A stretch of 34,922 bases of DNA from Flavobacteriaceae bacterium. Lineage in GTDB: Bacteria; Bacteroidota; Bacteroidia; Flavobacteriales; Flavobacteriaceae. The number at the start of each line of letters is the position of its first letter. The stretch's first letter is position 1. A program made the position numbers and the translations under genes. The notes beneath the pieces were generated by a model. That model worked only from the letters and a program-made list of their open reading frames with translations, was not told the DNA's origin and ran no database searches. Positions 4,234-20,848 of this stretch are shown piece by piece. The DNA lies in contig NZIQ01000006.1 in assembly GCA_002691685.1 (NCBI GenBank), positions 1 through 34,922 on the forward strand. Reading direction: 5' to 3'.

Positions 4234-5619
4234 ATGAAAAGAAGAGACTTTATTTCTAAATCTTCAATAGGAACTGCTGCAGTTATTGCTGGTTCTTCAT
4301 TGACTGCATGTGTAACAGGAGGAACACGTCTAGCTACACAACAATACATGGGTGATTTTCAAGCAGAGCCCTTGAGTACGATACGTGCTGCATTTATTGG
4401 CGTTGGTGCTAGGGGAGGCTATCACGCCAAGTCTTTTGCTCGTTTAAAAGGTACAGAAGTGGTTGCTATATGTGATGTTTATCAGGATTTAGTTGAAGAA
4501 AAGAAAAATTGGGTTGAAGAGGTTGATGAGTTTCAACAACATCAAAATATTGCTTTGTACTATGGCGATGAACAACAATGGTTAAAGATGTTAGAGGAGA
4601 TAAAACCTGATATTGTATTTATTGCAACCAATTGGGAAAACCACGCGCCGATGGCCATAGCCTCTATGAAAGCTGGAGCTCATGCCTTTGTCGAGGTTCC
4701 TATGGCAACTACTTTAAAGGATTTATGGGATATTGTCGATACTTCAGAACAGACCCAAAAGCATTGTATGATGATGGAAAACGTCAACTACGGTAGGGTA
4801 GAACTGATGTATCTCAATATGGTGCGCCAGGGTCTTGTAGGTGATTTGTTACACGCAGAAGCTGCTTATATTCACGAGTTGAGATGGCAAATGCAAGAGC
4901 AAGAGCGAGGCACCGGATCTTGGAGAACTCATCATTACGCAAATCGAAATGGTAATCTGTACCCTACCCACGGTTTAGGACCAGTTGCACAATACATGAG
5001 TTTAGCTCGAGGAGAGGACAATTTTGCAAGTTTAGTTTCTTTTTCTACACCTGCGATGGGACGTGCCTTATATGCCAAAGAAAATTACCCTTCTGATCAC
5101 AAATGGAATCAATTGGACTACAAGGGAGGTGACTTAAATACTTCAATTGTGAAAACTAAATTAGGTAGAACCATAATGATACAGTGGGATGAAACTAGCC
5201 CAAGACCTTATTCTAGGCATAATTTGATTCAAGGAACTAAGGGCACCTTAGCCGGTTTTCCTACGCGTATTGCTCTGGATGGAGGAGTTGAAGGATTAAC
5301 TAAGAATCATCACAGTTGGGTGCAAGGAGAAGAACTGCGTGCTATTTACGAAAAATATGATCACCCGCTCTACAAAAGACTCAATAAGAGCACTAAAAAC
5401 AGTGGTCACGGAGGAATGGACGGTATTATGATTTATCGTATTGTAGAATGTCTTCAAAACGGACTTGCTCTTGACCAAAATGTGTACGAAGGTTGCTTGT
5501 GGTCTGCAGTTTCACCATTGAGTGAAATTTCGGTTTTGAATGGGGGAGCACCTCAAACATTTCCGGATTTTACAAGAGGAGATAGTGTTCAAACCAATCC
5601 GATTTCGATTATTTCTTGA
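4234..5619 (+). CDS. Exported Gfo/Idh/MocA-family protein, GH109-like (candidate alpha-N-acetylgalactosaminidase)
   Basis: GH109 enzymes are NAD-dependent glycosidases that cleave alpha-linked N-acetylgalactosamine by transient oxidation. I start at ATG 4234; a TTG two codons upstream is less likely. The N-terminus begins MKRRDFIS with twin arginines, a hydrophobic stretch and SLTAC, consistent with Tat export and possible lipidation. GVGARGG near residue 57 is the dinucleotide-binding loop, FIATNWENHAPMA near 130 and EVPMATT near 154 are Gfo/Idh/MocA core segments, and NLYPTHGLGPVAQY near 240-255 is the stretch I associate with GH109. Total length is 461. It shares one base with the following kinase gene. 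An ordinary secreted sugar oxidoreductase remains possible. Confidence 0.8.
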   Translation: MKRRDFISKSSIGTAAVIAGSSLTACVTGGTRLATQQYMGDFQAEPLSTIRAAFIGVGARGGYHAKSFARLKGTEVVAICDVYQDLVEEKKNWVEEVDEFQQHQNIALYYGDEQQWLKMLEEIKPDIVFIATNWENHAPMAIASMKAGAHAFVEVPMATTLKDLWDIVDTSEQTQKHCMMMENVNYGRVELMYLNMVRQGLVGDLLHAEAAYIHELRWQMQEQERGTGSWRTHHYANRNGNLYPTHGLGPVAQYMSLARGEDNFASLVSFSTPAMGRALYAKENYPSDHKWNQLDYKGGDLNTSIVKTKLGRTIMIQWDETSPRPYSRHNLIQGTKGTLAGFPTRIALDGGVEGLTKNHHSWVQGEELRAIYEKYDHPLYKRLNKSTKNSGHGGMDGIMIYRIVECLQNGLALDQNVYEGCLWSAVSPLSEISVLNGGAPQTFPDFTRGDSVQTNPISIIS

Positions 5620-6680
5620 TGAAAAAAATTCGAGTTCCTTCGAGGATTTGCTTATTTGGAGATCATCAAGATTACTTGAATCTGCCTGTAATTGCAGCTG
5701 CTATTGACAGGTATATGAACTTGGAATATACCCCTACGGCTTCTAGTTTTTTCAAGATTAATCTCATAGATTTAGAACGTACTCTAGAGGTACACTTTGA
5801 TGATACTACGAAGGTCTCAAATAACGATTACTTTCGCTCTTGTATAGAGGTGCTTAAAACCTATGGATTTGAATTTCAATCTGGTTATGAATTAAATATT
5901 CACAGTGATATCCCCATAAATGCTGGTCTTTCAAGTTCTTCTGCACTGGTGGTTAGTTGGCTTCGTTTTTTGGTGGAGGTATTGCACAACCCCAGACAAA
6001 TTACAATCTCTGATTATCAAATAGGACGTTGGGCTTATGAATCTGAGGTTTTATTTTTTCAACAGCCAGGAGGGTGTATGGATCAATTCACTATTGCCAA
6101 TTCAGGAGTAATTTATATCGATACACTTACCCAACAACTAAGGAGATTACCCAAACCTAAAGGGTGTTATGTCATTGCCAATAGCGGGATTTCAAAGGAC
6201 ACCTTAACGGTTTTGGCTGAGGCGAAGAAATTGGCTTTAAGTAGTATTGAGAAAGCAATTCAAGAAGAAGGTAAAGTCGATAAAGTCACTGATTTTAGTC
6301 TTGACGATTACCATAACTATTTACATCTTATGACGCAAGACGAAAGGCCGTATTGGTTTTCAACCTTAGAAAATTATCGCATTACCCTAAATGCGCTCAA
6401 AGCGATGACTGCTGAGCATTCTTCAAAGGTCATAGGATCACTTTTAAATCAACATCAGTACATTTTAAAAAAGTACATTAAGAATACACCTGAAATCATG
6501 CAGGGTTGGATTGATGGAGTGATTCAAGATGGCGCTTTAGGTGCAAAAATAATTGGTTCTGGAGGAGGAGGATGTCTATTGGCGGTATGTAATGATGACG
6601 AAAGTGCACAAAAGATAGTTTTTCGTTTTAAAGAAATGGGAGCCAAAGAAGCTTTTCAAATAAATTTAATTGAAAGATGA
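5619..6680 (+). CDS. GHMP-family sugar kinase, galactokinase-like
   Basis: GHMP kinases of this type phosphorylate a sugar, usually at C1. The ATG at 5619 overlaps the previous TGA by one base; a TTG one codon earlier is rejected. Of about 353 residues, the N-terminus shows RICLFGDHQDYLNLPVIAAA, matching the galactokinase-type GxHxDYxxxPV sugar-binding signature. INAGLSSSSALVVSW near residue 107 is the GHMP ATP-binding motif, and KIIGSGGGGCLLAV near 308 is the third motif. No signal peptide is visible, so it is cytosolic. Its stop overlaps the next start by four bases (ATGA). The true sugar is not readable from the sequence; galactose, N-acetylgalactosamine, arabinose or a heptose phosphate are alternatives. 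Confidence 0.85.
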   Translation: MKKIRVPSRICLFGDHQDYLNLPVIAAAIDRYMNLEYTPTASSFFKINLIDLERTLEVHFDDTTKVSNNDYFRSCIEVLKTYGFEFQSGYELNIHSDIPINAGLSSSSALVVSWLRFLVEVLHNPRQITISDYQIGRWAYESEVLFFQQPGGCMDQFTIANSGVIYIDTLTQQLRRLPKPKGCYVIANSGISKDTLTVLAEAKKLALSSIEKAIQEEGKVDKVTDFSLDDYHNYLHLMTQDERPYWFSTLENYRITLNALKAMTAEHSSKVIGSLLNQHQYILKKYIKNTPEIMQGWIDGVIQDGALGAKIIGSGGGGCLLAVCNDDESAQKIVFRFKEMGAKEAFQINLIER

Positions 6681-7504
6681 GTGCAAATCTCATAGTATTA
6701 GCAGGTGGGAAATCTTCGCGGATGAAGAAGAGCTTAGATTCGATTGATTTAAATGATCAAGTTAAAAATATTGCCCTGCACCAGCACAAAACTCTAATCC
6801 CTATAGGTTCGAATGATGAGCCCTTGATGTATTATTTATTGCTAAATGCTAAAGCTGCTGGATACCGACGAATTTACATTGTTACTTCTAAAGAAAATCA
6901 GGCATTTAAATCTTTTTTAGCACGTTATTCTTTTGTTGGTATGCAAATTGACTTGTGTATTCAACATACCCCTGAGGGTCAAAAACCTATGGGAACAGCC
7001 GATGCTGTTTTTCAGTGTGTAAGCCAATTCGAGGAATTGACTAAAGCCTATTTTACGGTATGCAATGCGGATAATCTATATGGAGTAGAAGCACTAAAAG
7101 ATATGCTTAAAGTTCGGGAAGCACCGCATGCATTAGTGGCCTATAATCGAGCAGGTTTGCGATTCGCAGGGGAACGTATAGCAAAGTTTGCCTTAATAGT
7201 GTTCAATACTCAAAATCATTTGGAACAAATCATCGAAAAACCTGAAGAGTATCAAGTTTCACACTGCATGAGAACTCAAGGTGAACTCAGGGTTAGCATG
7301 AATATTTTTAGTTTTTACGGTCCTTTAATTTATGATTACTTGAAGGACTGCCCTGCACATCCTGTTCGTAAGGAAAAGGAATTACCGACTATGCTCATGA
7401 TAGCTATCAAAGAACATCCAGATTCTGTCTTCTGTTTTAAAAGTGAAGAACACGTTCCTGATTTGACTTCGGCGATGGATATTGATCAATTTTTCAAGAC
7501 TTAA
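6677..7504 (+). CDS. Sugar nucleotidyltransferase (NTP_transferase family)
   Basis: This 275-residue protein should transfer a nucleotide from NTP to a sugar 1-phosphate. The N-terminus has LIVLAGGKSSRMKKS, the LAGGxxxRM nucleotide-binding loop of the family. PMGTADAVFQCV near residue 100 is the GTADA segment that contacts the base and sugar, and VCNADNLYG near 124 carries the metal-binding Asp. IIEKPEEYQ near 178 is the EKP motif. No acyltransferase or left-handed helix domain follows, so it is a single-domain enzyme. It is translationally coupled to the kinase upstream. The sugar and nucleotide are unknown; UDP-sugar formation is my inference. It ends tail to tail with the SIMPL gene, overlapping it by four bases. 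Confidence 0.82.
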   Translation: MSANLIVLAGGKSSRMKKSLDSIDLNDQVKNIALHQHKTLIPIGSNDEPLMYYLLLNAKAAGYRRIYIVTSKENQAFKSFLARYSFVGMQIDLCIQHTPEGQKPMGTADAVFQCVSQFEELTKAYFTVCNADNLYGVEALKDMLKVREAPHALVAYNRAGLRFAGERIAKFALIVFNTQNHLEQIIEKPEEYQVSHCMRTQGELRVSMNIFSFYGPLIYDYLKDCPAHPVRKEKELPTMLMIAIKEHPDSVFCFKSEEHVPDLTSAMDIDQFFKT

Positions 7505-8232
7505 CGATCGATTCCAAATTCCAATTTCATTGTGATGGTTGCTGTTTTTTCTTTGGAACTGGTGTTGAATGTTCCTCCCCATGAATAATCTTCATTTGAA
7601 TTCTGACCTATGATTTGAAAGATACCCATTTTTGCAGATTTGAGTCCTCCCAAATCGGCATTGGCATTTTTTGCGATTTGTTCAGCCCGACGCGTGGCAT
7701 CATCTGTTGCTGCAGCAATCATCTCTACCTTTAGGTCTGCAAGTTGAGTATAATAGTATTGAGGCGCATTGGAATAAAATTCGATTCCATTGGTGATTAG
7801 CTCTGTGATATCTCTCGAGATCTGTTCAATTTTTTCAATTTCTTTGGATTCAATTTCTACTCTTTGACTAAGTGAATAACCAGAAAAAACTCTCCTACTT
7901 TGTCCGTTTTTTTCATAGACATAATCAAAGTTTTTATTGATGTCTACGGCTTTGAAAACGATTTCACTTGCTGAAACACCTTTGGTTATTAGATAATTAT
8001 GAATAGCTTGTTTATCCTGGTCAAGTCTATTGTAAGCGTTATTTAATTCATAAGCTCTCTTTGAAAATGAACCACTCCATACGATTAAATCTGACTTGAA
8101 ATCTTTGGTTCCTAAACCGGTTACACTAATGCGTTCTTGTTTTTGATTTCTGTTTTTATAGGCATGTGCAATGATTGCAACCGAAATCACAATTGACAAG
8201 CCTATGATAATTGAGGCTAATTGATTTTTCAT
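7501..8232 (-). CDS. SIMPL domain (DUF541) membrane-anchored protein
   Basis: The 243-residue protein begins with MKNQLASIIIGLSIVISVAI, a single N-terminal membrane anchor or uncleaved signal. The rest is a SIMPL/DUF541 domain: RISVTGLGTKDFKSD near residue 34 is the usual first strand pair, FSGYSLSQRVEIESKE near 116 and a late AEQIAKNANADLG helix near 185 followed by an STS-containing end. Family members are periplasmic and form beta-rich oligomers; their role is not well defined. Downstream, four bases overlap the nucleotidyltransferase gene on the other strand. Upstream, 52 bases separate it from another minus-strand exported protein, so the two may be cotranscribed. Confidence 0.88.
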   Translation of the reverse strand: MKNQLASIIIGLSIVISVAIIAHAYKNRNQKQERISVTGLGTKDFKSDLIVWSGSFSKRAYELNNAYNRLDQDKQAIHNYLITKGVSASEIVFKAVDINKNFDYVYEKNGQSRRVFSGYSLSQRVEIESKEIEKIEQISRDITELITNGIEFYSNAPQYYYTQLADLKVEMIAAATDDATRRAEQIAKNANADLGGLKSAKMGIFQIIGQNSNEDYSWGGTFNTSSKEKTATITMKLEFGIDR

Positions 8233-8284
8233 AGGTAAGATGATAATTTTGTTTTTTTATTCAATTACAATTATTGTGCCTAGT

Positions 8285-8908
8285 TTAATAAGGTTTAAAG
8301 GGAGGTAATACAAATTGAAAGTAATCCTTATAGTGATTTACTACAATCATAGCAGGTTTATTAGATAAAATTTGAGTATAAAGTTCTAGCGTAACTTCCT
8401 GTTCGTAGGTAAAAGTAATTTCAAAGGTTTTGGAACTTGGCTGCTGTGGGTGTCCAAAATCAACATATTCAATGGATTTACCCTCTGCTGTCTTATAAAC
8501 CATAACGACATCATTCCACCCCCATAGAAAAGAAGGATTTACACCGAATTCTAAAAATTTAAATCGAATGCTTCCAATTTTAGGGATTTGACTCAATAAA
8601 TATTGATTGTAGATTTCCTCTTGAACGACGCTGTCTTTTTTGATGATTTCTTTTTCTCTTTCTCCTATTTTTATTTTGGTTACAAAATCTTCGATATAAC
8701 TTTTTTTATCGATCAAATCAGTTGGTCTCTTTTCAAGGGCTATTTCAACTTTTACCTTAAGAGGAGCACTTTCTGTACTCGCATTTTTCAATTTTCCGTT
8801 TTCTACAATATAGGTGTAGGTCGTTTGCTCTTGGGCCTCTTTTTTTGTCCATTGTCCTTGAGCTACAAGGAAGAACATCAGCGATATGTATAGAAATATA
8901 GTTTTCAT
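8285..8908 (-). CDS. Exported protein of unknown function
   Basis: From the ATG at 8908 the product is 207 residues; a TTG one codon upstream is a less likely start. The N-terminus MKTIFLYISLMFFLVAQGQ is a signal peptide with a probable cleavage after AQG. The mature part alternates polar beta-like strands with charged loops and contains two Trp-rich pieces (NPSFLWGWNDVVMVYK near 123). I recognise no family. It lies between the SIMPL gene and the terminator of the MFS gene, so it probably starts its own transcript with the SIMPL gene downstream. Confidence 0.7.
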   Translation of the reverse strand: MKTIFLYISLMFFLVAQGQWTKKEAQEQTTYTYIVENGKLKNASTESAPLKVKVEIALEKRPTDLIDKKSYIEDFVTKIKIGEREKEIIKKDSVVQEEIYNQYLLSQIPKIGSIRFKFLEFGVNPSFLWGWNDVVMVYKTAEGKSIEYVDFGHPQQPSSKTFEITFTYEQEVTLELYTQILSNKPAMIVVNHYKDYFQFVLPPFKPY

Positions 8909-8914
8909 CAAAGT

Positions 8915-8941
8915 AAAAAAAAGCAGGCTTTTAGCCTGCTT
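8915..8941 (-). terminator. Rho-independent terminator of the MFS transporter gene
   Basis: AAGCAGGCT at 8921-8929 pairs perfectly with AGCCTGCTT at 8933-8941 around a three-base loop. Read on the minus strand the hairpin is followed by a run of T. It sits 10 bases past the end of the MFS gene. Confidence 0.88.
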
Positions 8942-8951
8942 TTGTATGCTG

Positions 8952-10163
8952 TTAGGCTATACTAGCCTTATTCTTTTTTTGCCAAAAATAAAGTATGGTA
9001 AATAGAATAACTAGTAATCCTGGAAAACTGACCATGTAAGTAATGGTTTGTTGACCAGCGGCCAGTTCAAGAGCATCTCCACTTAAACCATTGGCCTCTT
9101 GAGCGACTTTAGAAGCGTCAATCCAACCTCCAATGATAGGTTGAAAAATAGCTGTAGAGAACATTCCGACAGCTCCAACCATTGACATACCTAATGCTCC
9201 AGAGGCAGGTATTTTTTCAGCTACAAAACCGATCATATTAGGCCAGAAGTAACATACTCCTAATGCAAATGTCACAGCGGCAACATAAACCATAGATCCT
9301 GTTGAAGTACTTAAAAGATATACGCCTACTGTAGTCAAAACAGCTGAACCTAGTAAAACACCTGTTTGGTCTAACTTGTGCACCATTTCTCCTCCGAAAT
9401 AACGCCCAATGGCCATGAGACCTGTTATTAATGCTAAAATAAGCATGGGTTGTGCACCACTGTTTGAAAGTATTAAACTCGTCCATTGCTGAGGTCCAAA
9501 TTCTGAGATTGCCGTAAAGGCCATACAGAACATCATGAATAAAAAGAGTGGAGACAACATGGCTTTAAAATTTTCACTGATTGATCTCGATACTTCTTCT
9601 TTTGGTTTTGGAAAACTTTGACCGGCAAATAGGTAAGCGTAAATTAAGGTTGGAATAACAATAATACAAATTTGAGCTTGCCACCCTAAACTCATATCAG
9701 TCATAAATTTAGAGATTAAGCTACCTAAGACGATACCTCCAGGAAACCACATATGAAATCTATTGAGTAAAGTATTCATTTTTTTACCCTCATAGGCGTC
9801 TGCAATCATTGGATTACAAGCGGCCTCTGTGCATCCGTTTCCTATTCCGATTAAGAGTGTAGAGAGAAGTAGACTATTATATCCTGTTGCATAGATGGTA
9901 AGGATGATACCCGCCATGTGTGCAAGAAAGGCAAACTGCATGATTCTCTTACCTCCAAGGCTGTGGTAGACAAGCCCTCCAATGACCATTGAAATTGGAA
10001 ATCCGACAAACCACATTGAATTGATGAAACCTAATTCTTGTGCATTGAGGTTAAAATCATCTCCAAGTTGAGGGAGAATACCAGCTCTAATGCTGAACGA
10101 AAATGCTGTAGTGATTAATGCAAAACAACTTGCATAAAATAATCTTTGGTTATTCGTTGACAT
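8952..10163 (-). CDS. Major facilitator superfamily transporter, sugar-permease (FHS)-like
   Basis: The 403-residue protein has about twelve hydrophobic segments, the normal MFS layout, with a basic loop (SLGGKRIMQ near residue 68) at the MFS loop 2-3 position. GIGNGCTEAACNPMIADAY near 107 and LNRFHMWFPGGIVLGSLI near 134 resemble the conserved parts of the fucose/glucose/galactose-proton symporter branch, so a sugar substrate is plausible. The substrate cannot be read from the sequence. It is monocistronic by context: a strong terminator follows, and upstream it is divergent from a decayed lipoprotein gene. It is not adjacent to the glycosidases in this window, so no pathway is assigned. Confidence 0.85.
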   Translation of the reverse strand: MSTNNQRLFYASCFALITTAFSFSIRAGILPQLGDDFNLNAQELGFINSMWFVGFPISMVIGGLVYHSLGGKRIMQFAFLAHMAGIILTIYATGYNSLLLSTLLIGIGNGCTEAACNPMIADAYEGKKMNTLLNRFHMWFPGGIVLGSLISKFMTDMSLGWQAQICIIVIPTLIYAYLFAGQSFPKPKEEVSRSISENFKAMLSPLFLFMMFCMAFTAISEFGPQQWTSLILSNSGAQPMLILALITGLMAIGRYFGGEMVHKLDQTGVLLGSAVLTTVGVYLLSTSTGSMVYVAAVTFALGVCYFWPNMIGFVAEKIPASGALGMSMVGAVGMFSTAIFQPIIGGWIDASKVAQEANGLSGDALELAAGQQTITYMVSFPGLLVILFTILYFWQKKNKASIA

Positions 10164-10255
10164 AATTTATTAGTTAGTGTTAGAGAAGTGTAAAATAATA
10201 TATTTTTTCGTATTTCTGTTTTGAATACTAGACTTTAAGTAGATATATTTAACAT

Positions 10256-10724
10256 ATGTTGGGTCGAGAAAATCATTTCATCATTGTTTCTTTTATACTA
10301 TGGACTTTTTTTTCATGCGCTACAGATCAGAAAAAAACGAATAAGGTTGATCAAGAGCAACATCAATTAATACTCCAAATAGCTTAAAAGAAATTGAAAG
10401 TGATATTCGAATTTCCAATTTTGCTGAAGATTTTATGGAGTATCAGGTCTTTGAATGGAATGACAATCCTAACTTTGAAATAAAATCGTATTGGATTAAA
10501 GAGGAATTTATGGTTTCGGATAAGTTACTTAGAATAAAGGGAGAAAAATCTTTTCCTTTTCGCCAATGGGATGATCAAATGAGTTATGTTTTCTAGAGAA
10601 GACATATAGTGACAACAGAAATTTTTTTTACCAACAGGGCAAGAATTATCGTCAATATTGGTTGAGCACAGAATATAATCAAAGATTTGTACAATCCTAC
10701 AACTCTTCAGATTCGAAGGAATGA
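10256..10724 (+). pseudogene. Frameshifted lipoprotein gene
   Basis: The ATG at 10256 opens a signal peptide with a lipobox-like end (ILWTFFSCAT) but the frame stops at 10385-10387 after 43 codons. A second frame continues without a gap (TPNSLKEIESDIRISNF, then FAEDFMEYQVFEWNDN) to a stop at 10594-10596. A third frame follows (LEKTYSDNRNFFYQQGKNYR) to a stop at 10722-10724. Joined by two frameshifts this gives one acidic lipoprotein of about 155 residues. The second shift lies by a T-rich stretch (gttttc), so sequencing error cannot be excluded. Composition matches a coding region in each piece. I do not recognise the family. Confidence 0.65.
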
Positions 10725-11928: not shown

Positions 11929-12288
11929 ATGTTTAAAATCAATCTAAAATCTAAGTTTGAATTATTTCAAGACTTGTGGTCGCCTAAGGTCATTGCCGAG
12001 CTGAATGATTATCAATTCAAATTAGTGCGCGTTAAGGGAGATTTTGTCTGGCATAAACACGATGAGACCGATGAGGCCTTTTTGGTACTTGAAGGTTCGC
12101 TCAATATAGAATTTGAAGATAAAACCATTCAATTGAAAGAAGGAGAACTTTATGTTGTCCCTAAGGGTGTGCTGCACCGTCCTTTTGCTCTTCAAGAGAC
12201 TAAAATTTTAATTCTTGAGCCCAGGAATATTATCAACACAGGAGATGTGTCTAATGAGTTGACAGCAGAAAACGATCAGTGGATTTAG
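11929..12288 (+). CDS. Small cupin-domain protein
   Basis: A single cupin barrel of 119 residues. Motif 1 is VWHKHDETDEAFLVLEGS, supplying His42, His44 and Glu49 as likely metal ligands; motif 2 is ELYVVPKGVLHRPFA with His83 as the fourth. Such small cupins act as sugar isomerases, dioxygenases or binding proteins, and nothing here decides which. No signal peptide is present. Its 3' end overlaps the nucleoside hydrolase gene on the opposite strand by four bases. It is in the same direction as the upstream membrane genes, so its presence beside the ribose genes may be accidental. Confidence 0.88.
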   Translation: MFKINLKSKFELFQDLWSPKVIAELNDYQFKLVRVKGDFVWHKHDETDEAFLVLEGSLNIEFEDKTIQLKEGELYVVPKGVLHRPFALQETKILILEPRNIINTGDVSNELTAENDQWI

Positions 12289-13250
12289 TGCTGATTTAGA
12301 CTATCGTAAAAATCATTGATAATTGCCTTGCGATCAAAATTTTCCCAAAGCGTAATCCGATTTTGATTTTGTGGTCGATCTACCCACTTTTTAGCAACAA
12401 CGGTTGGAGTTGGAATACTTCTTTTTTTCCCCCATTGACTGTTTTTAAGCACTGCGAGTGCCACTAAATCAAATAAGGCTCTAGAGGGCGGATTACCGTA
12501 TAAGTCTATTTTTGAGAATAGCTCGATAGAGTAGTCTCCAAAATTGGTAAAACTTCCTCCATGTCGACCTATAACTGGTTTTACCTCAGGCCCCTTGTCT
12601 TTCATTTTTTTCTGTACTTCGTCTAGGGATACTTTTACGGCATCTGAGCCTGATTTTTTTCCATATCTCACGGTTACTATTTCAAAATCTAAATCTTGTT
12701 CAAGAAGGTAATTCAACGAAGGAATATCATTCTCTTGATTGTATTCACCAGGTTCTGGATAATTAGAGCCCAACCAAACCAATCTAATTTGATTTTTAAT
12801 TGAAGGGTCTTTTTCTACGGCCAAGGCCACGTTGGTCAACTTTCCGATTGCGGCAATAACAAGTTTTTCTTTTTTTGACTTATGGGCTTCTTTTATAATG
12901 AAATCAACGGCTGTTTTGCCGTCAAAGTTTTCAGATTGAACTTGTGCTTTAAGCTCGTCAAAATTCGAATTTGCGCCTTTTAAAATGAGATATTTTCCGG
13001 ACACATCACATAGGTCTGCAACTCTGTTGGCTTCATCGTAATGCTGGTCTATTTCTCCACCATTATAGGTGGTATTTACAGTTATACCTTTGATGTCAAA
13101 TGTCTCTTCATTGAAAAATAAATACGCTAGGGCGTGTTGATCATCTAGTTCATTATTGGCATCTGTATCTAAAATAATAGGTATTTTTCTTTCTTGACTA
13201 ATACTCCATTTGAAACTGATTACTAAAAGTAGGAGTAGGTATTTTTTCAT
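12285..13250 (-). CDS. Exported inosine-uridine-type nucleoside hydrolase
   Basis: It should hydrolyse the N-glycosidic bond of nucleosides to give free ribose and base. The N-terminus MKKYLLLLLVISFKWSISQ is a signal peptide, so the enzyme acts in the periplasm or is surface bound. IILDTDANNELDDQHAL at residues 25-41 is the DTDxxxxxDD calcium-binding signature of the family, and AIGKLTNVALAVE near 136 is a second conserved stretch. The length of 321 is normal. It is the last gene of a set of four (ADP-ribosylglycohydrolase-family protein, GRP permease, ribokinase, this gene), one base after ribokinase, which implies cotranscription and a shared ribose pathway. Base preference is not readable. 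Confidence 0.9.
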   Translation of the reverse strand: MKKYLLLLLVISFKWSISQERKIPIILDTDANNELDDQHALAYLFFNEETFDIKGITVNTTYNGGEIDQHYDEANRVADLCDVSGKYLILKGANSNFDELKAQVQSENFDGKTAVDFIIKEAHKSKKEKLVIAAIGKLTNVALAVEKDPSIKNQIRLVWLGSNYPEPGEYNQENDIPSLNYLLEQDLDFEIVTVRYGKKSGSDAVKVSLDEVQKKMKDKGPEVKPVIGRHGGSFTNFGDYSIELFSKIDLYGNPPSRALFDLVALAVLKNSQWGKKRSIPTPTVVAKKWVDRPQNQNRITLWENFDRKAIINDFYDSLNQH

Positions 13251-13251
13251 A

Positions 13252-14154
13252 TTAAATGATTTCGTTCATAACGGGTATAGAGGGTTGTGCACCTTTACGG
13301 GTTACTGATAGTGTTGCGGATTTCATGCCCAATTCAATAGCAGTTCTTAAGTCATTATCTTTTAAAGCCGCTGCCAAATATCCGTTAAAAACATCACCAG
13401 CAGCGGTGGTATCAACGGCTTTAACCTTTGAAGTCGATATAAATTGTCCTTTCTGCTCGTGAGAAATCAAATAAACACCTTTATCTCCAAGGGTTATTAT
13501 GACTGCTCTATTTACCATTTGTAACAAATTGAAAGCTGCTCGTTCGATACTTTCCTGGTCAACCAATTCTATACCTGTTAAGCCAAATGTTTCTGTTTCG
13601 TTTGGGGTAATGATGTCTACATTTTTTAAAAGCTCAAGACTAATTCCCTGGTATGGAGCAGGATTTAAAATAGTTAAAGCCTTTTTGCTTTTTGCTTGAG
13701 TCAATAAATAAGCTACTGAAGTTAAGGGTATTTCAAGTTGACAAAGTACAATATCCTTTTCAGTAATCTGATCTGAAATACGATCTATATTCTGTTGGTT
13801 TAAGTGCTTGTTAGCCCCAGGAGCAACTATTATTGCATTCTCACCTGAATTTTGATTCACCATAATCATCGCTGTTCCTGAAGCAACTCCTTTTTGTTTT
13901 TCTATGAATGAAGTATCTATACCTTCACTATTGTAAACAGCTATGGCATTGCTTCCGAATTCATCATCACCTACCTTGGTTAAAAAAAGTACATTTGCTC
14001 CGGCTCTTGCCGCTGATACTGCTTGATTAGCTCCTTTACCTCCTGAAATCACTTCAAAATCTCCACCTATTACCGTTTCACCATCCGCTGGAAATTTAGG
14101 AGTTTCAAAAACTAAATCTGTATTACTACTCCCGACTACTATTACTTTTGACAT
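13252..14154 (-). CDS. rbsK: Ribokinase
   Basis: This PfkB-family kinase phosphorylates ribose to ribose 5-phosphate in the cytosol. Over 300 residues, all expected elements are seen: VGSSNTDLVFE at the start, GGKGANQAVSAARAGA at residues 38-53 (sugar binding), the NETE segment near 185, and VDTTAAGDVFNGYL at 247-260 with catalytic Asp254 in the AAGD anion hole. The length and motif order are those of true RbsK rather than fructokinase or adenosine kinase. The neighbours (sugar permease two bases upstream, nucleoside hydrolase one base downstream) agree with ribose as substrate. Confidence 0.93.
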   Translation of the reverse strand: MSKVIVVGSSNTDLVFETPKFPADGETVIGGDFEVISGGKGANQAVSAARAGANVLFLTKVGDDEFGSNAIAVYNSEGIDTSFIEKQKGVASGTAMIMVNQNSGENAIIVAPGANKHLNQQNIDRISDQITEKDIVLCQLEIPLTSVAYLLTQAKSKKALTILNPAPYQGISLELLKNVDIITPNETETFGLTGIELVDQESIERAAFNLLQMVNRAVIITLGDKGVYLISHEQKGQFISTSKVKAVDTTAAGDVFNGYLAAALKDNDLRTAIELGMKSATLSVTRKGAQPSIPVMNEII

Positions 14155-14156
14155 GA

Positions 14157-15152
14157 TTATAATTTAGCGAGAATAATTAGGGTTAACCCACCGAGAAATA
14201 ATAGAAACATCAAAGAGATTAAGGTATTCGTTCCTTTAGGAGCATTTTTAAATTCTTTCCAAATAAATACGCCCCAAAGAGCTGCAACCATTGTTGCTCC
14301 TTGCCCTAGACCGTAAGAAATGGCGTAACCGGCTTCTCCAGCAGCAATCGTATTAAGTACCATACCTATGCACCAGATTGCACCACCTAAGATCCCAATT
14401 AGATGTAATTTAGTGTTGCCCTTTTTGAAATAATCTGAATAGCTCACTGCTGCGCCACTTAATGGCTTGTACATGAATATGCTATTGAATAAAAAGTTGG
14501 AAAAGAAAATACCAAGAGAAAAAATGAAGGTTGCCGTATAAGGAGTAAGTTTACCTGTTGCAATAACTTCGAAATTTTCGGACATAGAAGCCGCGACAAA
14601 GCGGTAAAAGAATCCCATTAAAACACCCGCACAAATGGAAATTAAAATTCCTTTTGTCGAGGACTTTTGAGTATTTATTTTTTTGTAAGCAATGGCATCT
14701 ACAATAATAGCTATAGTCACTAAGGCAACACCTATAAAGAGCAGGGTTGGATTTCCATCTGGTACAGCGATATAATTAACTAGAACACCTTGAACTAGTG
14801 CAATTCCAATACCTATTGGAAAAGCAATAGCCATTCCAGCGATGTCGATTGCTGCCACTAAAAGCAAGTTGGCTATATTGAATATAACACCACCTAAAAG
14901 TGCCAGTCCAATGGCATTAAGAGAACTTTGATTGAGATTTTCAATAAAGGGAGCCCCAGAATCTCCGGTACTTCCAAGGGTAAGTCCAAAAAGAAGAGAA
15001 AGTAAAATAATCCCTAAGGTATAGTCCCAATAAAAAAGGGGGAACCCCCATTCTTTTGAAGCCATTTTCTGGGTGTTTGCCCAGGATCCCCAGCAAAGCA
15101 TTGTGATAAAACACAGGATGACCGCAGTCAAATAAGAAGAAACAAGAAACAT
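14157..15152 (-). CDS. GRP-family (RbsU-like) sugar permease, probable ribose transporter
   Basis: The 331-residue protein has about ten hydrophobic helices with DMT-superfamily character. The start MFLVSSYLTAVILCFITMLC leads into WGSWANTQKM, and internal segments LLVAAIDIAGMAIAFPIGIG near 98 and EAGYAISYGLGQGATMVAAL near 272 resemble glucose/ribose porter (GRP) proteins. It would import free ribose across the inner membrane for the ribokinase encoded directly downstream. The substrate is inferred from neighbours. Upstream lies a 69-bp gap to the ADP-ribosylglycohydrolase-family gene; that gap contains an AT-rich TATATTTTT that could be a promoter, so this gene may also be transcribed independently. 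Confidence 0.85.
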   Translation of the reverse strand: MFLVSSYLTAVILCFITMLCWGSWANTQKMASKEWGFPLFYWDYTLGIILLSLLFGLTLGSTGDSGAPFIENLNQSSLNAIGLALLGGVIFNIANLLLVAAIDIAGMAIAFPIGIGIALVQGVLVNYIAVPDGNPTLLFIGVALVTIAIIVDAIAYKKINTQKSSTKGILISICAGVLMGFFYRFVAASMSENFEVIATGKLTPYTATFIFSLGIFFSNFLFNSIFMYKPLSGAAVSYSDYFKKGNTKLHLIGILGGAIWCIGMVLNTIAAGEAGYAISYGLGQGATMVAALWGVFIWKEFKNAPKGTNTLISLMFLLFLGGLTLIILAKL

Positions 15153-15221
15153 AATTTAGTGAGGTTAGTTCTTCTAAAAATATAATTTTTTTGCGAAATG
15201 GTTTTGTGCAAGCTCGTAAAC

Positions 15222-16853
15222 CTAATTTTTTATCCGAATCAAATCAATAGTTTTGGGATTTGGACTCTGATCGCCAATTATTTTTAAGGTGTGTGTTTTA
15301 TGTTCAAGTGTCGTTTTTTCAAATACTTTAAAATAGAACTGACCTAAGGATTGGGTAGTGCTAAGATCATAATTACCAATGAAGTTTTGGTCCAAGTAAA
15401 TTTTGATTGAACCTGCATCAAGACTTCGATAGGAGTACAATTGAATAGCCTTACCTTTAAATGAGATTTCTGCTGAACAATTTGCTTTGCCAACAGTTAG
15501 GGTTGCTCCAGAGGCATTCCACTGTTCTTGTTGGGTTTCGAAACCTGAATAACACCAAGATTCGTGGTTATCTTCTATGGTTTGCCATTTATCTTCTTCA
15601 ATGACTGAGGAAGCCGTAGAAAGTTCATGAGTGATTCGAGGAATGATCCAATGGCCATTTTCAACACTTCCGTTCATTTCTTTTCGAACGACCGCATCGA
15701 TAAGTTTTAATCCTCTATCTGCCATATCGTTAAAATCATCAATCATAAGGGGTGTATTGTAGCGTGTTCGAGCAATGTTATATGAGGTCGAAAAATTATA
15801 ATCAAATACGTCTTTTAATTCGTCGAAACCCATTAGAAGTCCCAAAAATCCACCCCAGGTTGCGGTTGGATTGTCCGAATCCCATCCACACATGCTCGCT
15901 ATGGAAAGGGTTCTTTTAAAATCACCTTCTCCGTAGAGTAAACTTATAATTGAAGCTGCGAAGTTAATGCCTGAATCCCAAGGATATTGGTAATCATATC
16001 CAGCATTATGATTGTATTGGTATCTGTTTGCTACCATATCCCTCGTTTTTTCCCAATCGTTTTTATCTGGATTTTTAAGGTAACTGTTGTATACAAAGTC
16101 ATACATATCGGCGATGTAGGAGGAATTAGGAATGTATTTTCGCGCAATCTCAGTTATTCTTAAGATTTCGTCTTTACGACTTTTATCAGAATCGATAGTG
16201 ATGGCCAACGTATGCATGATAACATAAAATTCTGCAGCCCATTGTGAATGCGCATAGGCTGTTGTTCTAATAGGTAGATGTGCTAGTTTAAGGCCTATAT
16301 CTGGTCGAGATGGAGCAAGTGCTCCAAATATTTCTGTAGTTAATTGAGCATCAATCATTTCCCACATGGGATTATTGTCAGGATGAGAGGTGTCAGGTGG
16401 TAATGAGCCGTTTTGCATTTGGGTTAGGGCAGCCAAGTTTGATACCCAGAGTAAGGGTAATCCAATGTGTTTTTGCCATGCTGTACTGATTTGACTAGGT
16501 GTCAATAAAGGAGAATTGTTTTGTTCCATAGCCAGTTGATAGATATACTCTATATCAGTATCGTCATCAGCTCCCCAGGGATCTTCATCCAGCACGAAAT
16601 TAAATTTCCCTTCTCCAAAATCGTCATCAGTAAAAAAAGGAAAATTCACTCTTCTATTTTCGGTAGGAAGTCCTGTCCAATTTCCGATACATGACCCCAA
16701 CCAAAAACCCATTAAATGATCCCTATAAACGGATTTGGAAATAACCAATGAGTCATTTGTAGTCGTATTTTTTACTTCTGATTCACCTTTTAAAAATGAA
16801 GAGAAAAAGTAAAATGAGATGCTCAACAGAAAGGACATTACGTGCATAATCAT
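15222..16853 (-). CDS. Secreted ADP-ribosylglycohydrolase-family protein with C-terminal beta domain
   Basis: I start at ATG 16853 (543 residues); a GTG two codons upstream and ATGs at 16847 and 16838 are alternatives. The N-terminus is hydrophobic (SFLLSISFYFFSSFL), so the protein is exported or anchored. GFWLGSCIGNWTGLPTE at residues 49-65 and WGADDDTDIEYIY at 94-106 are the first metal-binding motifs of the ADP-ribosylglycohydrolase fold; CGWDSDNPTATWGGFLGLL near 322-340 is the second. There the usual GDxDT is changed to WDSDNPT. Residues about 415-543 form an added beta-rich part (GKAIQLYSYRSLDAGSIKIY, ending HTLKII) that looks like a carbohydrate-binding sandwich. Context with ribokinase and nucleoside hydrolase suggests it releases ribose or ADP-ribose from ribosylated substrates. 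The exact substrate is unknown. Confidence 0.85.
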   Translation of the reverse strand: MIMHVMSFLLSISFYFFSSFLKGESEVKNTTTNDSLVISKSVYRDHLMGFWLGSCIGNWTGLPTENRRVNFPFFTDDDFGEGKFNFVLDEDPWGADDDTDIEYIYQLAMEQNNSPLLTPSQISTAWQKHIGLPLLWVSNLAALTQMQNGSLPPDTSHPDNNPMWEMIDAQLTTEIFGALAPSRPDIGLKLAHLPIRTTAYAHSQWAAEFYVIMHTLAITIDSDKSRKDEILRITEIARKYIPNSSYIADMYDFVYNSYLKNPDKNDWEKTRDMVANRYQYNHNAGYDYQYPWDSGINFAASIISLLYGEGDFKRTLSIASMCGWDSDNPTATWGGFLGLLMGFDELKDVFDYNFSTSYNIARTRYNTPLMIDDFNDMADRGLKLIDAVVRKEMNGSVENGHWIIPRITHELSTASSVIEEDKWQTIEDNHESWCYSGFETQQEQWNASGATLTVGKANCSAEISFKGKAIQLYSYRSLDAGSIKIYLDQNFIGNYDLSTTQSLGQFYFKVFEKTTLEHKTHTLKIIGDQSPNPKTIDLIRIKN

Positions 16854-16928
16854 AATCACTTAGGGCAAGGTAAGATAGCACTTTGAATTTAAAAAACTGC
16901 AATCACAAAGGGTAGTATGTTAAGTAAA

Positions 16929-17711
16929 TTAAACCACTTTTTCAGACATAGCATGGGCTATACCATCCCAAAGACTAATCCTTTTTTCTAAGGCTTGAAT
17001 AGCAATTTCTTCGGCCTCTTTCCATTTAACCTCATCATTTCCGCATAATTCTTCAACCATTTGAAGAGAAAGGGGTCCGTGCTCGTCACCGTCTAATTCG
17101 ATATGCCTTTCTAAATAATAATTCAGTTTGCTATATTTTTTATTGGACTCATCAGCTTGTTTTAAAATTTCTATGAACATATCTGGGATGAGGTCTTCTC
17201 TTCCAAAAGTGAAAGCAGATGCAATGAGGTGTATTTTTCTTGTTTCAATAACTGCAAAGGTGAAGTTCACAAAATCGGAAACTTCAGCTCTTAGTTGTAA
17301 ATCTCCCAAGGCTGATGAAATGGATTTTTTTTCTTTTATTTCTTGTACGAACCTTTGAATAGATTTGGTGCTTGCACCTGCCTGATTCATGGCATCTAGA
17401 TACATTTCAAAATGACTTTTTGCCTCACCTAATTCATTGATATCACTTTCTTCTCCATGCACGATTTCATTAATAAATCTAGACAAAGTTGGATTTTTTG
17501 CGGGTGTCCAGGGAACCTCTGTAGTAGTAAGTTCAATCTGTAAGGCCTTTAGAAGCGACATAAAGTCCCATACCGCAAACACATGATGCTCCATAAACAT
17601 TTGTATATCTTCAATAGAAGAGAGTTGGGAGTACAACGGATGTGATCTCAGTTTTTTTTGCAGTGGCACTAACTTTTCTTCAAGTAATCGAATTGATGAT
17701 GAAACTTCCAT
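16929..17711 (-). CDS. DUF3050 protein, heme-oxygenase-like fold
   Basis: The 260-residue protein is all-helical by composition and soluble. [18 protein letters not shown] near residues 40-57, HGEESD near 85 and [19 protein letters not shown] at 200-218 are the stretches by which I recognise DUF3050. Many His, Glu and Asp residues fall on these helices (Glu41, His42, His43, Glu201, His203, Asp207, His211). Relatives with the heme-oxygenase-like fold include diiron oxidases and oxygenases, so a metal site is plausible but not shown. It sits 47 bases after the BNR-repeat gene and about 75 bases before the ADP-ribosylglycohydrolase-family gene on the same strand; no functional link is evident. 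Confidence 0.85.
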
Positions 17712-17758
17712 TTTTTGTTAGCAAGTTAAGCCGAATTTACCGTTTGACTAAATTTTGT

Positions 17759-20700
17759 TTAACGACTGTTGTTATCTTCAATCAATAGCTTCACTTTAGT
17801 GAAATCGTTCTTTAATACTTTATTGAGGTTTTCCAGGTGTAATTCAAGTTCTTCGGAGAGTTCAGCAAAGACTTTATAAGCGCCGTTTGTGGGCCTTGCA
17901 TCTCCATTTTCTAAACTTCTTCTCAAAGAAGCAAGACGGTTATTCAATTTGATCGGAAAGTTTAAAGGGTCTTGACCAGATTGATTTCGTACTTGATATA
18001 AGGCTTCTTCTATTTCACTTAATTTTGAAAGGAAAGGTGTTATAATTTTTTTCTGATTTTTTTCAGAAATTCTGGTATCTGCATCTTTGATTTTTCCTTT
18101 TATATCTCGAATCTTAATCACAGCTTCATTTGCAGCTGTGGTTTTTTGCGTGATTTGCATAGCTAGCTTAAACTGCTCGTCTAAATCTTCTTTACTGATT
18201 CCTTTGAGATTCGGATTTATTTCGATGTAGAAGGGATAGGTCTGCTTATAATCACCTACTCTCATCCTAACTTTAAATTGTCCTAGTGGTGCTTTTGGGC
18301 CTCTTGTAGGTCTTGCACTCCAGATGATCATTCCATCAAAATCTGTTGCTCCCGGATAGCGTAAATCCCATGTGAAGGTATTTAGTCCCTTAGCTGTAGT
18401 GGGTTTTGAGGAACCTCCTCTTTGCCACCAAGGAATATTGGGATCCACTTCGTATTTAACCTGGTCTCCTGTAAAAGTGTCTATCACTTCATTGTTTTGA
18501 TCAAGTATTTCAAAACTCACTTTTTCAACTTCCTCGTTGAGGTGATATTGAATGTGAGCTTCACTAATTCCTCTTATGGCATTATTAGGCATGTAAAGAA
18601 TAGCTTCTTGGTTTTTCATCTCAGCATGGTGTTGACGAATAGGTTCGATATCGTCCATGATCCAAAAGCCTCTACCGTGAGATCCGAGAACGATATCATT
18701 GTCTTTAATTACTAGATCTCGAATTGGCGTGTCAGGAAGGTTCAATTGTAAACTTTCCCATTTTGCTCCGTCGTTTATTGAGAAGTATACCCCGTGTTCT
18801 GTAGCCAGAAAGATTAGCCCTTCGCGTTTATGATCTTCACGTATAGCCCTCGCAAAGTGACCATCTGCGATGCCATCAATTATTTTGGTCCAGGTTTTTC
18901 CGTAATCATGTGTTTTAAATACATAAGGCTGTCTATCATCTACTTGATATCGGTTTGCTGCGACATAAAGTGTACCTGGTCTATGTTTAGACTCATCGAT
19001 GATGCTTACCCTAGAAAATTTCGGCAGGTCTTTTGGAGTGATATCTTTCCAATTTTTCCCTCCATTTTGAGTGATGTGAATTTTTCCATCATCTGATCCT
19101 GCCCAGATGGTGTTAATGTTATGAACAGATGGAGCCAGAGCAAAGACAGTAGCATAAATCTCTGGACCATTCATATCCATGGTAATCACCCCTCCTGTTT
19201 TTCCGAGTGTGCTCGGATCTGCATAAGTGAGGTCAGGACTTATTTGTTCCCATGTTTGCCCGTCGTTAGTGGTTCTCCAAACATGTTGAGAACAGGTGTA
19301 CATTACCTTACTGTCTTGAGGAGCAAACATTATGGGAAAGGTCCATTGCCAGCGTTCCGGCAAAGCCTCTGAAGGTTCTCCTGAGAAAAATCTTGGATAT
19401 ACCTGAATATCTCGTATTTGACCATTGCTGCGATCGTATCTTGTCAGAAGGGCGCCTTGACTTCCCGCATAAAAAATATCTGGATCATCAGGGTGTTGTG
19501 TAATCCATCCACTTTCTCCTCCTCCTACGGCGTAATACCAACCTTTATTCGGTCCTCTAGCTAGCATATGATCCCAACCATCACTTGGCATGGCTAGGGT
19601 GCTATTGTCTTGTTGTGCTCCTGCGACGTGATAGGGAACATCACTTGTGGTCATAACGTGATAAAACTGTGAAGTGACAAAATCTTGTTCTGTCCAAGAT
19701 TTCCCTCCGTTAATGGTAACATTACCTCCACCGTCATTTGCATTGATCATACGTTGTGGATTATTAGGGTCAATCCAGAGGTCGTGATTATCTCCGTGAG
19801 GTGTCTGAATTATTTTGTCAAAAGTATGACCGCCATCACTGGACATATACATTCTTGTATTTAGCCCGTAGACCTTGTCTTTATCTCGAGGATCGGCATA
19901 TATTCTTGAATAGTAAAATGCTCTTTGGCGTAACTTTCTTTCGTCATTAGTTTTTTGCCAAGTCTTACCGGCATTATCAGAACGAAAAACACCACCTTCA
20001 TTGGCCTCGACAATGGCCCATACGCGATTAGAATCAGCAGGAGAAACCGTGACGCCAATTTTACCAATTGGGCCCATTGGCATACCTTGATTTTCGGTGA
20101 GGTCTGACCAGCTGTCGCCACCGTCTTCTGACTTCCACAATTTACTTTGGCCTCCGCCTCCCCACATTTTCCAAGCTTTTCGGTATACCTGCCAAGTACT
20201 GGCATAAATAACATTAGGATTGTTGGGGTCAATAATTAAATCTACAGCACCTGCTTTAGGCCCTACATAAAGTACCTTTTCCCAAGATTCCCCACCGTCT
20301 TTAGATCTAAATACGCCACGCTCTTCGTTATCGCCGTAAGGATGCCCTAGAGCAGCAACATAGACTAAATCTGAGTTGGTAGGATGTATACGTATTCTTG
20401 CCACCGCTTGTGTTTCTTCAAGGCCTAAATGTTTCCAGGTTTTTCCAGCATCGGTAGATTTATATACCCCATTACCTTGGGTGATACTTCCACGTAATTG
20501 AACTTCACCCATGCCGATATACACGACATCAGGATTGCTTTCTGCGACAGCAACTGCTCCTACCGAGGAGCTAGTTACTTGACCATCAGTTGCTGGTTTC
20601 CATTCATTACCGCCATCTACGGTTTTCCATAAACCTCCTCCTGTGGCACCGAAATAATATTCATTGGGTCGACTAGGACTTCCTGCGCATCCTAATGATC

Positions 20701-20848
20701 GGCCTCCTCGTTTTGGGCCAATATTTCGCCATTCTAGCCCATTGTAGTACTGTTCCTCAATAGAAGAAAGACTGTTTTCTTGTGCAAAAAGCGTAGGAGT
20801 AATTGATAGTAATGCGATGACACAGCAGTATTTAAGTAGCGTTTTCAT
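17759..20848 (-). CDS. Secreted BNR/VPS10-like beta-propeller protein
   Basis: A 1029-residue exported protein with signal peptide MKTLLKYCCVIALLSITPTL followed by FAQ. At least nine Asp-box (BNR) repeats are visible, for example YKSTDAGKTWKHL, FRSKDGGESWEKV, WKSEDGGDSWSDL, FRSDNAGKTWQKT, WRTTNDGQTWEQI, ITQNGGKNWKDI and FKTHDYGKTWTKI, spread over residues about 70-730. They would form one or two large propellers as in sortilin/VPS10 and BNR-repeat glycosidase-like proteins. The last 300 residues hold a beta-sandwich-like segment and then a helical tail. Proteins of this architecture are often annotated glycosyl hydrolase, but I see no catalytic motif and leave the activity open. It lies 141 bases downstream of the GH95 gene, same strand. 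Confidence 0.88.
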   Translation of the reverse strand: MKTLLKYCCVIALLSITPTLFAQENSLSSIEEQYYNGLEWRNIGPKRGGRSLGCAGSPSRPNEYYFGATGGGLWKTVDGGNEWKPATDGQVTSSSVGAVAVAESNPDVVYIGMGEVQLRGSITQGNGVYKSTDAGKTWKHLGLEETQAVARIRIHPTNSDLVYVAALGHPYGDNEERGVFRSKDGGESWEKVLYVGPKAGAVDLIIDPNNPNVIYASTWQVYRKAWKMWGGGGQSKLWKSEDGGDSWSDLTENQGMPMGPIGKIGVTVSPADSNRVWAIVEANEGGVFRSDNAGKTWQKTNDERKLRQRAFYYSRIYADPRDKDKVYGLNTRMYMSSDGGHTFDKIIQTPHGDNHDLWIDPNNPQRMINANDGGGNVTINGGKSWTEQDFVTSQFYHVMTTSDVPYHVAGAQQDNSTLAMPSDGWDHMLARGPNKGWYYAVGGGESGWITQHPDDPDIFYAGSQGALLTRYDRSNGQIRDIQVYPRFFSGEPSEALPERWQWTFPIMFAPQDSKVMYTCSQHVWRTTNDGQTWEQISPDLTYADPSTLGKTGGVITMDMNGPEIYATVFALAPSVHNINTIWAGSDDGKIHITQNGGKNWKDITPKDLPKFSRVSIIDESKHRPGTLYVAANRYQVDDRQPYVFKTHDYGKTWTKIIDGIADGHFARAIREDHKREGLIFLATEHGVYFSINDGAKWESLQLNLPDTPIRDLVIKDNDIVLGSHGRGFWIMDDIEPIRQHHAEMKNQEAILYMPNNAIRGISEAHIQYHLNEEVEKVSFEILDQNNEVIDTFTGDQVKYEVDPNIPWWQRGGSSKPTTAKGLNTFTWDLRYPGATDFDGMIIWSARPTRGPKAPLGQFKVRMRVGDYKQTYPFYIEINPNLKGISKEDLDEQFKLAMQITQKTTAANEAVIKIRDIKGKIKDADTRISEKNQKKIITPFLSKLSEIEEALYQVRNQSGQDPLNFPIKLNNRLASLRRSLENGDARPTNGAYKVFAELSEELELHLENLNKVLKNDFTKVKLLIEDNNSR

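Follow-up and report, generated by a model that had tools for sequence, protein, structure and literature searches.

Architectures of rus loci reportedly vary across Bacteroidetes, as the 2020 rus paper by Glowacki is said to describe. The rus set of B. thetaiotaomicron, as listed in one published account, comprises a ribokinase, a TonB-dependent receptor, a SusD, a DUF4969 protein, a nucleoside hydrolase and a DMT permease (PMC10434189), and a passage of another names BT2803-2809 the Rus PUL, gives its activity as highest on ribose and puts RusT forward as the ribose transporter (PMC12596196). Staphylococcal SCC elements, in the stretch shown in PMC3637587, carry an ADP-ribosylglycohydrolase-permease-ribokinase gene set. 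The window, i.e., the whole 34,922-nucleotide stretch of DNA analysed here, makes up contig C38 of a genome of 2.1 Mb that is 82.5% complete. Compared by gene content, it resembles BT2803-2809 in holding a ribokinase, a DMT-type permease (RusT in B. thetaiotaomicron) and a nucleoside hydrolase in one locus, yet it differs from that locus, as far as the published descriptions of rus go, in lacking SusC/SusD and a linked RusR-like gene, in showing no DUF4969 protein and in having an extra DraG-fold protein. By description, the staphylococcal set shares the functional trio with the window; however, its permease is of the cytosine/purine/uracil/thiamine/allantoin type, and no nucleoside hydrolase lies in the stretch shown (PMC3637587).

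The sequence-only reading described four minus-strand genes separated by gaps of 69, 2 and 1 bases. The open reading frame list bears out these gaps, and the families are confirmed by Pfam and NCBIfam. The first gene (15222-16859) encodes a putatively exported DraG-fold protein (PF03747) of 545 residues if read from the GTG at 16859; in-frame ATGs lie at 16853 and 16847, and the latter, giving 541 residues, is probably the true start because the copies in two close relatives begin there. The second gene (14157-15152) encodes a GRP, or ureide-permease-type, sugar permease of 331 residues, for which PF07168 (Ureide_permease) is the best Pfam match (E 2.1e-22), followed by PF06800 (Sugar_transport, E 4e-8). 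A Kyte-Doolittle scan gives nine hydrophobic segments in this permease, which finds no match among solved structures and is RusT-like. The third gene (13252-14154) encodes the 300-residue ribokinase RbsK (PF00294 PfkB, E 2.4e-61), whose TIGR02152 score of 337 bits exceeds the cut-off of 299.65 and is the sole such match over cut-off in this incomplete genome. The fourth gene (12285-13250) encodes a nucleoside hydrolase of 321 residues (PF01156), predicted to be exported from a plain, signal-peptide-like N-terminus judged by eye.

The related-species comparison proposed at the outset gives the same gene order in the closest bacteria: in two close relatives, the MAGs Flavobacteriaceae bacterium MED604 (L004) and Flavobacteriales bacterium PL36327bin_9 (L005), the order and spacing of the four genes are identical to those in the window. 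These two MAGs, whose names suggest marine source bacteria, are probably the same as assemblies G002 and G006, given equal identities, and each was counted once. The shared flanks comprise a sortilin-like gene, DUF3050, a cupin and an MFS transporter. Across eight comparisons (four genes in two relatives), dN/dS lies between 0.025 and 0.16, and the four genes are thus under purifying selection; together with the common order and spacing, these values argue that the set is not a chance arrangement. The four genes may well be co-transcribed. A promoter scan gave no excess (19 versus 18.2 ± 4.5), and the terminator-like sites (11 versus 4.0 ± 1.7) were set aside because several fall within genes. 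Of the 11 genomes of the genus, three carry the DraG-fold gene; they are the largest of the genus set, and they alone have the neighbouring MFS gene as a close copy (97-100%).

To place the locus more widely, permeases were searched in a class sample (found in 12 of 345 genomes, own included), an order sample (3 of 395, i.e., the own genome, one clear case and one weak partial match) and a set of chosen genomes (6 of 14, two genus members included), and three further loci came with nucleoside hydrolase matches. Outside the genus, this yielded 20 permease loci in 19 genomes of 15 genera, with flanks read mostly for 5-12 kb on each side and for less at contig ends. Excluded from the 20 were a second, 27% match in one genome (L044, G463) and a 62-residue match with stops (L061, G585); ribokinase matches had to reach 35% identity and 140 aligned residues, and open reading frames under 80 residues were ignored. 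A ribokinase occurs in 15 of the 20 loci (11 genera), a DraG-fold gene in 8, a RusR-like gene in 7, a nucleoside hydrolase in 6 and a SusC/SusD pair in 2 (L050 and L126), tallies that are not independent draws, the loci having been found via permease or hydrolase and some belonging to one genus; absences are weaker in the seven loci cut by contig ends (L047, L053, L113, L115, L116, L133 and L138). Four loci (L083, L127, L128 and L129) have permease and ribokinase with neither hydrolase nor DraG-fold gene nearby. As a control, 11 loci anchored on DraG-fold genes away from permeases (9 foreign, 2 own) were read, and 0 of 11 had any of permease, ribokinase or nucleoside hydrolase; the nine foreign loci stand for 9 of 10 foreign relatives, the tenth (G057) being excluded since its three distant copies (26-36%) lie near a permease in L126, one of the 20. 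The permease-ribokinase pair is therefore the stable core of these loci, being present in 15 of 20 versus 0 of 11 and found even without hydrolases.

Around this core, the loci closest to the window and to rus differ in their additions. L050 combines a permease 58% identical to the window's with a ribokinase, nucleoside hydrolases, SusC, SusD and a RusR-like gene, a set much like BT2803-2809 in the gene lists published (PMC10434189, PMC12596196). All four families of the window come together in L110 (nucleoside hydrolase, permease, ribokinase, DraG-fold) and L047 (ribokinase, DraG-fold, nucleoside hydrolase, permease), likewise with no SusC/SusD in the flank read, though in other gene orders; L047 further differs from the window in its DraG subfamily, its nucleoside hydrolase subtype and a RusR-like neighbour. 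The likeness to rus claimed by the sequence-only reading thus holds for ribokinase, RusT-like permease and nucleoside hydrolase, with L050 adding the SusC/SusD pair.

That reading had also noted the missing SusC/SusD, and indeed blastp finds no homologue of either in the window. For the search that it proposed for a distant rus-type pair, one PF14322 SusD match lies on contig C64 of this 82.5% complete genome. The absence at the locus is the usual state in our sample rather than an oddity, since no pair occurs in the flank read of 18 of the 20 permease loci, where a SusC-like protein (28%) about 7 kb from the permease without SusD (L054) and a 21% SusC-like match (L137) were not counted as pairs; for the same reason, SusC/SusD is not taken as defining the wider kind. 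Entry of small substrates through general porins is plausible. A linked RusR-like regulator has no match in the window either. The RusR-like family, proteins of about 500 residues named by position and not by comparison with RusR, has matches on contigs C77 and C89 of the genome. All seven further members of the genus that were tested have them too, five of them without a DraG-fold gene match, arguing that the family is not tied to the operon.

We therefore consider it likely that the operon is a SusC/SusD-free form of a rus-kind ribose-scavenging operon. The gene set is already known in related bacteria, and the window holds a further example. In the proposed route, nucleosides and other small ribosides would diffuse into the periplasm. 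There, ribose would be freed from nucleosides by the exported nucleoside hydrolase, and probably from a different riboside by the exported DraG-fold enzyme. The GRP (RusT-like) permease would then carry ribose across the inner membrane, and the ribokinase would convert it into ribose 5-phosphate for the pentose phosphate pathway. The substrates of both hydrolases are assigned here from family and gene context, as is ribose as the sugar carried by the permease. Of the route sketched by the sequence-only reading, hydrolysis, GRP import and ribokinase stand up, with TIGR02152 over its cut-off, the permease-ribokinase linkage in 15 of 20 loci and a ribokinase in 5 of 7 close hydrolase loci, whereas ADP-ribosylated material as a substrate fares poorly, with two motif positions changed and the subfamily often encoded away from ribose genes. 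These findings suggest that the rus idea, in which ribose is freed outside the cytosol, imported and phosphorylated, extends to a small-genome flavobacterium, and that permease and ribokinase form the rus core to which hydrolases, regulator and SusC/SusD are added or omitted.

The nucleoside hydrolase matches PF01156 (IU_nuc_hydro) at E 1.4e-18, over the cut-off. Its motifs DTDANNELDD, GKLTN, EYN and LFD are conserved in the subtype, with EHN replacing EYN in 3 of 9 sequences; D28, D30, D36, D37, T139, N140, E169, N171 and D261 are invariant among the nine aligned. The Asp-rich DTD..DD, the TN, the E-x-N and the C-terminal Asp are presumably the motifs of inosine-uridine nucleoside hydrolases, the acidic ones serving metal and ribose. 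Alignment with solved chains covers the TN and E-x-N stretches, and a profile of the subtype reaches 19 solved sequences at E <=0.001, nearly all named nucleoside hydrolases. The AlphaFold model of the window's hydrolase, built from a three-row alignment, is poor (mean pLDDT 52). Hydrolases match at any level in 27 of 345 genomes of the phylum sample, own included; the closest relatives (48-59% identity) come from 7 of these genomes, in families f101, f119 and f122, and their seven loci have a ribokinase nearby in five cases and a permease in three. One of these seven loci, L112 (3815-10434), joins a hydrolase of the window's subtype to an ABC importer, a LacI-type protein and a ribokinase, the importer standing in the permease's stead. 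For the permease, the ATPase and the binding protein of this ABC importer, the top-scoring models are those for arabinose, xylose and allose, with ribose models close behind; the LacI-type protein is closest to RbsR, and the kinase exceeds the ribokinase cut-off. Equivalog cut-offs are reached by neither the ABC parts nor the LacI-type protein, and no ABC part has ribose as its top model. That one importer takes the place of another beside this hydrolase and kinase is consistent with transport of a pentose, ribose being the simplest candidate.

The alternative that survives best concerns what the two hydrolases cleave: both might act on modified ribosides, e.g., 2'-O-methylnucleosides, with ordinary nucleosides used elsewhere. 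Solved nucleoside hydrolases are distant from the window's subtype (best profile E 4.8e-10), the genome encodes a second PF01156 protein on contig C85, and 2'-O-methylnucleoside hydrolases with a ribokinase nearby in some genomes are described in a section of PMC6278475. However, the acidic metal and ribose motifs are conserved in the window's protein, and nothing in it is specific to a modified riboside, so that we consider this alternative unlikely.

A less probable alternative turns on the first gene, which would strip ADP-ribose from proteins, or cleave ADP-ribose or NAD material outside the cytosol, and thereby feed the ribose route. In its favour, the DraG-fold protein matches PF03747 (ADP_ribosyl_GH) over residues 51-348 at E 2.5e-26, with 93.5 bits versus a cut-off of 26.2, and a glutamate and the aspartates that form the metal site in ARH enzymes are retained. 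As given in the motif description of PMC6309922, this site reads E...SDDT...DSDS or E...[T/S]DDT...DTDT in ARH1/ARH3, and mutation of one Mg-coordinating residue abolishes the activity of both enzymes. In our sequence alignment, however, the window's protein has E67...D98 D99 D100 T101...D327 S328 D329 N330, which departs at two positions from E...[S/T]DDT...D[S/T]D[S/T], and this E...DDDT...DSDN motif is shared without change by all 14 sequences aligned, namely the window's and those of 13 relatives, including one close relative and the genome's own paralogue on contig C73. By comparison, the other paralogue of the genome, on contig C32, reads STDDT...DNDT. The single sequence matches no solved structure, and the 14-member profile reaches no PDB chain at E 0.01.

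Gene context likewise cuts both ways. At 7 of the 20 loci, a PF03747 gene neighbours permease and ribokinase; four of the seven have the window's subfamily (L049, L051 and L052 of one genus, and L110), and the staphylococcal stretch in PMC3637587 joins the same three functions. In 9 of 10 foreign relatives, by contrast, neither permease, ribokinase nor nucleoside hydrolase lies near the DraG-fold gene; the tenth, G057, has distant DraG-fold copies near a permease and SusC/SusD. No DraG-fold protein is present in the flank read of the ribose genes in L111, L114 and L115. The permease is present in 4 of the 10 genomes chosen for the DraG-fold gene, unlinked in three and about 5 kb away on the same contig in G057, whereas the order sample holds, the own genome aside, a single clear case. 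The sampling was not matched between these sets, and a functional tie between DraG-fold gene and permease is possible. Weighing these points, we find the ADP-ribose alternative distinctly unlikely, and "ADP-ribose scavenging" is a label taken from the family name. It is conceivable, with the balance tilting somewhat against it, that the exported or lipoprotein E...DDDT...DSDN subfamily is instead a separate Bacteroidota family of ribosidases or other glycosidases. If so, a separate glycosidase family with a C-terminal extension would supply the ribose operon with a ribose source besides nucleosides; the subfamily is assayable, and the name ADP-ribosylglycohydrolase may mislead.

The N-terminus of the DraG-fold protein is hydrophobic and has no lipobox, whereas lipobox-like starts are seen by eye in many more distant relatives. 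Its C-terminal extension of about 130 residues (about 410-545) matches no named family and has no counterpart in the aligned close relatives outside the genus; the distant DraG-fold copies of L046-L048 have an extension of their own. The AlphaFold model, again from a three-row alignment, is poor (mean pLDDT 37) and renders the extension partly as strands. Elsewhere in the genome, a second lipoprotein-like DraG-fold gene of the same subfamily (L057, 4143-7101, contig C73) is divergent from an FGGY-type sugar kinase, possibly another sugar link. In G057, L126 (6689-19487) holds three tandem PF03747-type genes by a SusD/SusC-like pair (blastp 26% and 31%) and a GRP permease, with no ribokinase found in the flank read, and is possibly a PUL built around DraG-fold enzymes.

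The window's permease shares 56-69% identity with those of the 15 RbsK-linked loci. It is very improbable that it carries a nucleobase, a ureide or an intact nucleoside in an operon for nitrogen or nucleobase salvage, as Ureide_permease being the best Pfam match and the permease type of the staphylococcal analogue (PMC3637587) might suggest, given that permease and ribokinase pair even without hydrolase or DraG-fold gene in L083, L127, L128 and L129, that the operon has no nucleobase-processing gene, and that RusT, a DMT-type protein likened to it by family, is put forward as a ribose importer in the rus descriptions (PMC12596196, PMC10434189). Ribose import thus remains our preferred reading for the window, while the GRP permease family as a whole is probably not ribose-only, because 5 of the 20 loci have no ribokinase nearby and L053 lies beside dehydrogenase-like genes. 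In that locus (5298-10569), the permease adjoins genes judged by eye to be dehydrogenase-like and cyclase-like, neighbours that suggest another substrate for the family.

A possible horizontal origin of the operon was weighed. In the order sample the permease is scarce, and it is commoner among the relatives picked for the DraG-fold gene, two samples that are not matched; the permease and the hydrolases most similar to the window's in foreign genomes (69% and 59%) belong to family f101 of the same phylum. In the trees, both permease and ribokinase of the window are placed weakly: the permease tree joins the window clade to f101 rows at 82/89 and 87/78, and the ribokinase tree leaves the placement unsettled.

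Upstream of the operon, both close relatives have an open reading frame of 298 residues between the sortilin-like gene and DUF3050 (L004, 7147-8043; L005, 7146-8042), which has no counterpart at 17711-17759 of the window. The adjacent gene, at 17759-20848, encodes a sortilin/VPS10-type protein. With 15 match rows in the own genome of 2.1 Mb and 4-13 per genome in 10 further members of the genus, some rows being pieces of one gene, this family shows a notable expansion for such small genomes.
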